64,000 nt of DNA from Phaeobacter inhibens DSM 16374. Lineage in GTDB: Bacteria; Pseudomonadota; Alphaproteobacteria; Rhodobacterales; Rhodobacteraceae. The first letter of the stretch is position 1. Every line of letters starts with the position of its first letter. The stretch is from the NCBI RefSeq assembly GCF_000473105.1, contig NZ_KI421498.1, positions 2,418,001 through 2,482,000 on the forward strand, in the 5' to 3' direction. Below, in pieces: positions 55,217 to 56,598 of this stretch. Both the position numbers and the translations under genes were made by a program. The notes under the pieces are model-generated. The model was not told the DNA's origin and did not search any database. It was given only the letters and a program-made list of their open reading frames with translations.

Positions 55217-55849
55217 ATGACACGTTCTTATCTACCTGGCATCCTTGCCATGGCCGCCATTGTCGTGGCCTCCAACATTCTGGTGCAATTCCTGTTTGGC
55301 CAGTGGCTGACATGGGGCGCCTTCACCTACCCTATCGCCTTTCTCGTGACCGATGTGACCAACCGCGTCTACGGCACCGGCCCCGCCCGCAAAGTGGTGC
55401 TGGCCGGTTTTGTCGTCGGCGTCATCTGCTCGCTGATCGGCACGCAGATCATGGGCGAATTCGGCCCTCTCGTGACCCTGCGTATCGCCATTGCCTCTGG
55501 TCTGGCCTTCCTGACGGCCCAGCTGCTGGATGTCTCGATCTTTGCCGCCCTGCGCAATGGTGCCTGGTGGCGCGCGCCGCTGGCCTCCACCCTGATTGGG
55601 GCCTCCGTCGACACTGCGCTGTTCTTCAGCATCGCGTTTTCCGGTGCTCTGGTCTGGCTGGAACCCGGCAATAACGTCAGCTGGGCCGCTGAGATGCTGC
55701 CGGTCCTTGGCACCGGTCCCGAGGCCCCGCTCTGGGTGTCGCTCGCCGTTGCGGATTGGGGCGTTAAGATCGGTCTGGCCCTCCTGGCCCTGATCCCCTT
55801 CCGCCTGATTGTGACCCGTTTGACACGACCACAGGCCACCGCAAACTGA
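55217..55849 (+). CDS. yhhQ: Queuosine precursor transporter (VUT family)
   Basis: A 210-residue inner-membrane protein with six helices. Conserved motifs are AFTYPIAFLVTDVTNRVYG near residues 36-54, LAFLTAQLLDVSIFAALR and ASTLIGASVDTALFFSIAF, the usual signature of YhhQ/DUF165 transporters that import 7-cyano-7-deazaguanine or 7-aminomethyl-7-deazaguanine for tRNA queuosine. A GGACT ribosome site is weak. The 146-bp leader between the previous gene and this start was inspected for a preQ1 riboswitch without a convincing match. Confidence 0.92.
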   Translation: MTRSYLPGILAMAAIVVASNILVQFLFGQWLTWGAFTYPIAFLVTDVTNRVYGTGPARKVVLAGFVVGVICSLIGTQIMGEFGPLVTLRIAIASGLAFLTAQLLDVSIFAALRNGAWWRAPLASTLIGASVDTALFFSIAFSGALVWLEPGNNVSWAAEMLPVLGTGPEAPLWVSLAVADWGVKIGLALLALIPFRLIVTRLTRPQATAN

Positions 55850-55933
55850 CACTTTGGTTTTTTTATTTGGAGATCCTTCCGTTCCGTGCCACCGTCCGAG
55901 GCAACGGAAACAAAGAGAAAAGGAGGTGATCCA

Positions 55934-55990
55934 GTGTCCAGAAAGGTATTGGAGCAATGCGTAGCAACAACCGGAGCGGCGGGCCTCTGA
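55934..55990 (+). CDS. Candidate 18-residue small protein or leader peptide
   Basis: GTG start seven bases after AAGGAGG, which is optimal spacing, then codons for V/M-S-R-K-V-L-E-Q-C-V-A-T-T-G-A-A-G-L and TGA. Several codons are uncommon for this GC-rich genome (GTA twice, TTG, ACA). The peptide matches no family I know. A second frame from an ATG at 55957 (26 codons) has a poor ribosome site. The unusually complete Shine-Dalgarno match is the main support; the peptide itself may matter less than ribosome loading. Confidence 0.4.
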   Translation: MSRKVLEQCVATTGAAGL

Positions 55991-56064
55991 GGCAGCCCTC
56001 TCTGGCAGCAGCCATCCGGCTGGGTCTCGCACCCTAACCTGCCTTTGCTCTTACAGACTTTCGG

Positions 56065-56096
56065 AAAGGGCCGCCTCGCAAGGGGCGGCCCTTTTT
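56065..56096 (+). terminator. Strong intrinsic terminator upstream of arfB
   Basis: An 11-bp perfect stem (AAAGGGCCGCC and GGCGGCCCTTT) with an 8-nt loop runs into TTTTT. It closes the candidate small RNA and lies 82 bp before the arfB start, so arfB needs its own promoter or read-through. Confidence 0.9.
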
Positions 56097-56178
56097 GCGT
56101 GACACGCAGTCCACAGTGCCCAACGCAGCCCCGGCTTTCGCTTGGACCTTGGCCAATCACCGCAGTATGGTCCGCCCC

Positions 56179-56598
56179 ATGTTGCGTATCACCGACACCA
56201 TCGCCCTGCAGGACTGGGAATTGACCGAGAGCTTTATGCGCGCCTCCGGTCCCGGTGGGCAGAACGTCAACAAAGTCTCCTCAGCTGTTGAACTGCGGTT
56301 CGAGGCCGCACGCTCCCCGGCGCTGACACCTGCAGTGAAATCCCGCCTGAAACGGCTGGCGGGCCGTCGCTGGACCAAGGATGGCGCGATCATCCTGCAA
56401 TGCGACGAAACCCGCTCGCAGCAGCGCAACCGCGATCTGGTGCGTGAGCGGCTGGCCGAGCTGATCCGCCAGGCCCTGGTTGTCCCCAAGCGCCGCATCG
56501 CCACCAAACCCACACGCGGCTCAGTGCGCCGCCGCCTTGATGCCAAACGCCAACGCAGTGATGTCAAAGCGACGCGCGGTAAGATCGACCCAGATTAA
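56179..56598 (+). CDS. arfB: Alternative ribosome-rescue factor / peptidyl-tRNA hydrolase ArfB
   Basis: A 139-residue release-factor-like protein (YaeJ/ICT1 type) that frees ribosomes stalled at mRNA ends. The catalytic GGQ loop is ASGPGGQNVNKVSSAVELRF; the C-terminus is a basic flexible tail (VPKRRIATKPTRGSVRRRLDAKRQRSDVKATRGK) that enters the empty mRNA channel. Length equals the family norm. The start is the ATG at 56179 (MLRITDTIALQDWEL); an ATG four codons earlier and an open frame back to the terminator are less likely. Confidence 0.94.
   Translation: MLRITDTIALQDWELTESFMRASGPGGQNVNKVSSAVELRFEAARSPALTPAVKSRLKRLAGRRWTKDGAIILQCDETRSQQRNRDLVRERLAELIRQALVVPKRRIATKPTRGSVRRRLDAKRQRSDVKATRGKIDPD

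Follow-up and report, generated by a model that had tools for sequence, protein, structure and literature searches.

A putative CC2171-type small RNA of Rhodobacteraceae with an extended Shine-Dalgarno sequence, predicted to be self-paired, and an apparently translated 18-codon frame

What kind of element carries a 15-nt perfect complement of the 16S rRNA 3′ tail directly before a frame of only 18 codons? The question is raised by a locus in the 64,000-nt stretch of DNA analysed here (the window). The sequence AAAGGAGGTGATCCA occupies positions 55919-55933 of the forward strand; it is the sole copy without mismatch in the window and the sole perfect copy in the 4.13-Mb genome, where a single site with one mismatch was found (C6:1913540). 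The perfect complementarity claimed in the original prediction was confirmed: AAAGGAGGTGATCCA matches a real 16S 3′ end, since the tail GCGGCTGGATCACCTCCTTTCT was read in three further genomes of the genus. The tail was not found in the searched copy of the window's own genome, in which the rRNA genes seem to be masked or missing, and the tail sequence for the pairing tests was taken from the congeners. The predicted duplex of AAAGGAGGTGATCCA with the tail has an energy of −26.6 kcal/mol and is much stronger than any other in the window. For the 87 window ORFs of at least 150 aa, the median is −6.5 and the best value −13.7 kcal/mol, and among 3929 ATG/GTG sites only one other reaches −20 kcal/mol or lower. 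Most relatives have a match of 16 nt or one that differs by a single G-U-compatible change. The commonest forms of the Shine-Dalgarno sequence among 272 distinct homologous elements, a set whose extraction required GGAGGTG, are GAAAGGAGGTGATCCA (141/272) and GAAAGGAGGTGGTCCA (86/272). The 5′ part of the RNA would be nearly as strong a docking site for 30S subunits as its own 16S rRNA permits.

The locus is arranged as follows. The upstream neighbour is a queuosine-precursor transporter gene of the VUT/YhhQ type on the forward strand (55217-55849; TIGR00697, 91.9 bits; PF02592). A small ORF after the 15-mer had been noted from the start and is indeed present on the forward strand: it begins with GTG at 55934, directly after the complementary sequence, and comprises 18 codons ending with TGA (55934-55990; MSRKVLEQCVATTGAAGL). 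The intrinsic terminator lies about 70 nt past the frame, on the same strand (56062-56097). It was correctly recognised, while its length was underestimated at 11 bp; the stem has 16 bp (56062-56077 with 56082-56097), covaries in the alignment and is followed by a T-run. Downstream, also on the forward strand, lies arfB, encoding a ribosome rescue hydrolase (56179-56598; NF006718, 185.7 bits), which is a frequent neighbour of the element. Alignment of the upstream regions of the family revealed a conserved promoter whose −35 motif, TTGACA, lies at about −64, with the extended −10 element TGnCANNNT 17 nt further on. By analogy with it, the forward strand of the window has TTGGAG as a predicted −35 element (55867-55872) and, after a TGC, CACCGT as a predicted −10 element (55890-55895), which would place the transcription start near 55902, about 30 nt 5′ of the GTG. 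The locus is read as a putative autonomous small RNA gene of approximately 195 nt (about 55902-56097), with predicted promoter and transcript ends. The 5′ hairpin that was originally proposed at about 55877-55910 does not fit this layout; it mostly overlies the predicted promoter and therefore is probably mostly untranscribed. In the promoter spacer of most relatives, a conserved near-palindrome, ACACAAAATCTGTG, can be seen between the −35 and −10 elements; perhaps it is an operator.

A 95-position sequence model covering the Shine-Dalgarno sequence, the ORF and the post-stop region was used for the search of homologues. Of 395 Rhodobacteraceae genomes, 349 carry the element, almost always in a single copy; it is also present in 142 of 150 genomes of an order sample, all 142 of which belong to Rhodobacteraceae. 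Outside this family, the matches are mostly limited to the first 35 positions of the model, with a few weak longer ones. The 15-mer and the stems are conserved across Rhodobacteraceae, as the original prediction would have them. A mobile or phage origin was also considered and was rejected, with no match among the plasmids and phages searched.

The gene order around the element is fairly stable on the 5′ side, where the queuosine-precursor transporter is found in 251 of 267 loci. On the 3′ side, arfB follows in 207 of 263 loci, and in the other 56 there is a different gene, in several cases on the opposite strand and converging. The association of the element with arfB is therefore frequent and not obligatory. 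All 28 examined genomes without arfB after the element encode it elsewhere. In genome G212 (locus L123), the gene just past the element resembles smpB, the partner of tmRNA, in a by-eye reading of the translation; this would be a second gene for ribosome rescue beside the element, possibly a chance arrangement.

Such a neighbourhood suggests that the element could be a cis-acting attenuator leader of arfB, in which the position of the ribosome on the frame selects the terminator or an antiterminator, so that arfB is raised when ribosomes are stalled or scarce. Besides the frequency of arfB itself, the distances speak for this: the terminator and arfB are separated by a median of 51 nt, and by less than 25 nt in 28 of 186 loci, where read-through into arfB is likely. 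Moreover, the post-stop segment is complementary to the 5′ arm of the terminator (55988-56000 with 56063-56077 in the window), at −13.8 kcal/mol against −9.3 kcal/mol for shuffled sequences. However, this pairing does not coevolve, the native energy being −13.79 and the swapped one −13.88 kcal/mol, and the antiterminator was rejected despite complementarity beyond that of shuffles. The terminator is also far more stable (−24.4 kcal/mol), and the helix that sequesters the Shine-Dalgarno sequence, described below, ends about 10 nt before the terminator without overlapping it. Finally, in the 56 loci without arfB downstream, the element is as intact as in the others, so that it is an autonomous RNA and not merely an arfB leader. 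As the sole identity of the element, a pure arfB leader was rejected on this ground, and we regard the attenuator reading in general as distinctly unlikely.

The fold was tested in a 40-sequence block alignment, whose blocks were cut at sequence motifs and not by complementarity. In the four proposed helices, 89.0% of the cells are paired, compared with 83.7% when the partners are shuffled and 36-50% when they are slid. Cells with a double change number 81 against 29.2 in the shuffles, and none of 500 shuffles reaches any of the five measures. These shuffles take no account of shared ancestry, although ancestry alone is made less likely by the number of pair types and by the slid controls. The strongest covariation belongs to P2, which joins codons 12-14 with a stretch beyond the stop codon (55968-55975 with 56015-56022, forward strand) and has six pair types in one column; it is also paired in the predicted fold of the window. 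P6, between codons 10-11 and the segment after CTAA, has compensations too, and the minimum-energy fold of the window does not choose it. The P1 hairpin (55930-55953, forward strand), found in the window fold and in the family alignment, holds the 3′ end of the Shine-Dalgarno sequence and the start codon. A post-stop hairpin (55989-56000, forward strand) is present in the window fold, and its pairs are variable in the family alignment.

The remaining helix, P4, is formed by GGAGGTG of the Shine-Dalgarno sequence and a segment shortly 5′ of the terminator that reads CAYCTCC in most of the family. It is paired in almost all cases, with compensations at the last pair; as its 5′ strand hardly changes, most of its variation is by G-U. 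In the genus of the window, the 3′ strand, i.e., the internal anti-Shine-Dalgarno sequence, has changed to ACCTGCCTTTGCTCTT, and the predicted minimum-energy pairing is retained over 14 bp (55913-55927 with 56037-56052, forward strand). Pairing of the same 3′ strand with codons 7-11 of the ORF was noticed by eye in this genus and was set aside as inconsistent family-wide, whereas its pairing with the Shine-Dalgarno sequence is consistent. Across 224 family members, the mean predicted pairing probability of the Shine-Dalgarno sequence is 0.98; it falls to 0.65 after a mononucleotide shuffle of the 3′ part that leaves the first 45 nt untouched. Another 55 alphaproteobacterial loci that share this Shine-Dalgarno sequence, some of them the same place fetched twice, show no excess over the shuffle (0.70 against 0.68). 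Among the Alphaproteobacteria compared, the lock is thus predicted only for the Rhodobacteraceae form; not being seen in the others examined, it appears to be dispensable for the general role of this kind of RNA.

The same helix bears on another explanation, according to which the element is a trans-acting regulatory sRNA that is incidentally translated, with the CTAA region, the P1 loop or the freed anti-Shine-Dalgarno strand pairing with other mRNAs. An autonomous gene with its own putative promoter and a terminator, the curation of CC2171 (see below) as an sRNA, and conserved unpaired stretches such as CTAAC are what such an RNA would be expected to have. In the genus of the window, however, the anti-Shine-Dalgarno strand keeps its internal pairing only and not a fixed sequence; a strand that has changed and still pairs favours internal pairing over a fixed trans seed. 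No conserved seed was identified outside the fold either. A trans-acting role of this type seems to us unlikely, although it is the least improbable of the alternatives to a ribosome-responsive RNA.

The short frame deserves separate consideration. It has exactly 18 codons in 258 of the 272 elements and starts with GTG, ATG or TTG. Codon 19 is TGA, TAG or TAA; TGG does not occur at all, compared with about 38 cases expected under the assumption that the two purine positions vary independently. This supports selection on the start, the stop and the length of the frame. When the codons themselves are compared, a different picture emerges: the third positions are no freer than the first and second ones, and conserved residues are encoded by a single codon (Thr12 by ACA in 255/255 cases, Glu7 by GAG in 256/256). 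Selection on the peptide sequence was accordingly not detected in codon use across these elements. As judged from such comparisons, the sequence appears to be constrained as RNA, with translation of a fixed length being selected and the peptide not.

It can also be noted that A-ending codons (AGA for Arg3, ATA for Ile5 and ACA for Thr12) are almost fixed in the frame at 55934-55987 and in its homologues, which is unexpected in GC-rich genomes. Those of these positions that fall into the P1 loop or into junctions are unpaired.

A gene for a functional 18-residue protein, expressed very strongly, would account for the fixed frame length, for the selected start and stop, and for the conserved residues Leu6 and Glu7 and Val10, Gly11 and Thr12. 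The use of single codons speaks against it, as do the C-terminal third of the peptide, which varies widely, and the unrelated peptides of the class relatives; given the constraint on third positions, this candidate was considered weak and set aside, and its chance is slight. The related suggestion that the locus is a very strongly translated small gene is supported as regards the strong site and an apparently translated frame and is incomplete, the Shine-Dalgarno sequence being predicted to be internally paired.

As for known RNA families, Rfam at gathering thresholds gives no match in the window. By E-value, RF01867 (CC2171, curated in Rfam as a Caulobacter sRNA) matches positions 55911-56092 end to end (model positions 1-159) with 37.1 bits and an E-value of about 1e-6, which is below the gathering score of 75. 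The statement that no named family has this layout is therefore true at the curated threshold and misses a full-length alignment below it. The alignment rests mainly on the 5′ block and the terminator. The element is the top RF01867 match in the genome of the window. In Rhodobacteraceae, 53 of 61 genomes have a match, none of the 61 over the cut-off, and the best match is nearly always this element; across the class, 66 of 279 genomes have matches with E-values up to 0.01, including 8 over the cut-off.

Among 289 genomes of the class, 63 contain a pattern of the Shine-Dalgarno sequence with the start codon, and none contains its reversed control. The class loci examined have frames of 14-35 codons (58 in one case), largely unrelated peptides and, mostly, a terminator soon after the stop; what they keep is the 16S-complementary block and the start codon, not the peptide. 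Loci L051, L057 and L140 in Rhodobacteraceae and L101-L106 in other families combine the same Shine-Dalgarno sequence with a different frame of 26-30 aa, several of them ending in EQP; they may represent another subtype of the class-wide RNA. We read all these loci as one probable kind of RNA across Alphaproteobacteria with a constant core composed of the 16S-complementary 5′ end and the start codon. Homology of the element with CC2171 is likely; since it rests on a short, functionally constrained block, the element is not filed under RF01867. It would be a divergent variant of the CC2171 kind of sRNA, with a putative mechanism outlined below. In the literature, RF01867 is also listed in a Mesorhizobium study (PMC5596092), and a Caulobacter Ribo-seq study reports, in a passage that does not name them, that two formerly predicted ncRNAs are translated (PMC4117421). 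The literature search found no description of this RNA in Rhodobacteraceae, and a paper on Paracoccus denitrificans sRNAs (PMC5107571) could not be mapped to this locus.

The reading that we prefer, with a probability of roughly 0.45, is that of an autonomous, translated and structured sRNA of the CC2171 type with a closed and an open state, which reports the availability of 30S subunits or the rate of initiation. In the closed state, the internal anti-Shine-Dalgarno sequence shortly 5′ of the terminator would pair with the Shine-Dalgarno sequence, and a hairpin would hold the start codon. In the open state, the Shine-Dalgarno sequence would be bound by the 16S tail, which would be the natural opener, and the frame would be translated. 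The closing strand would be made about 100 nt after the Shine-Dalgarno sequence, and which state is adopted may depend on whether a 30S subunit has loaded by then; this is how the RNA would act as a reporter. The fold might be kept open by translation of the frame, with the peptide as a by-product. Some transcription probably runs on into arfB in many genera. Candidate outputs of the two states are the stability of the RNA, an effect in trans and read-through into arfB. The initial idea of a leader that reports free 30S subunits is retained here in part: a leader is not the core identity of an element that persists without arfB, and the report on 30S subunits is the preferred, unproven, possibility.

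The same fold could serve an RNA switch that is opened by an input other than the ribosome, e.g., temperature, a protein or a metabolite such as a queuosine precursor, and is then translated. Switches of this type are typically off while their Shine-Dalgarno sequence and start codon are self-paired, and the queuosine-precursor transporter is a constant neighbour. However, it is the full complementarity to 16S rRNA that is conserved class-wide, which points to the ribosome, and a non-conserved peptide would be an odd target of switching. We consider such an input very improbable. A bolder version of the preferred reading, a ribosome-sensing RNA, treats the 16S 3′ tail as the ligand: a class-wide CC2171-like kind would report free 30S subunits through a maximal Shine-Dalgarno sequence, and a self-locking version would have evolved in Rhodobacteraceae, usually beside a ribosome-rescue gene. 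This version is doubtful, and it is still more plausible than any of the alternatives weighed above.

If the preferred reading is true, an RNA curated as a non-coding sRNA of Caulobacter belongs to a class-wide, apparently translated kind that shares maximal complementarity to the 16S tail as its core, and its Rhodobacteraceae form would be a natural RNA switch for which the ribosome itself serves as the input. It has long been asked how cells gauge their free ribosomes, and the element would offer a compact candidate whose helix can be disrupted and repaired. Because it usually lies beside arfB, a connection with ribosome rescue can be tested directly.

Several known systems can be compared with the element. 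Pos19 (RSs0019) of Rhodobacter, from the same family, is likewise an sRNA-sized transcript with a small frame; unlike the element, it is described as 219 nt long and as a member of the RpoE regulon, and the accessible part of that account contains no link to this locus or to a 16S-complementary start (PMC5036791). Leader-peptide attenuators of the trp type share a short frame, a structured RNA, an intrinsic terminator and a frequent position 5′ of a gene; in contrast to them, the element has no coevolving antiterminator, no constant downstream gene and no series of identical control codons. Translational riboswitches and RNA thermometers in which the Shine-Dalgarno sequence is sequestered resemble it in that the ribosome site and the start codon are paired in the resting fold, as prediction and covariation suggest here. 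They differ from it in what is controlled, here just an 18-codon frame whose peptide is not conserved, and in the strength of the ribosome site, which is exceptional in the element; unlike for riboswitches, we know of no ligand for this element. A likely relative is CC2171, with which the element shares the 5′ block CAACAAnnGAAAGGAGGUGAUCCAGUGUC containing the 16S-complementary Shine-Dalgarno sequence and GUGUC, a short frame in the same place and the terminator. The helix of the CC2171 model formed by CAUUGUC and GACAAUG before the terminator is deleted or unpaired in the window; the window also has another frame, another 3′ part and a predicted Shine-Dalgarno lock without a counterpart in the class relatives.
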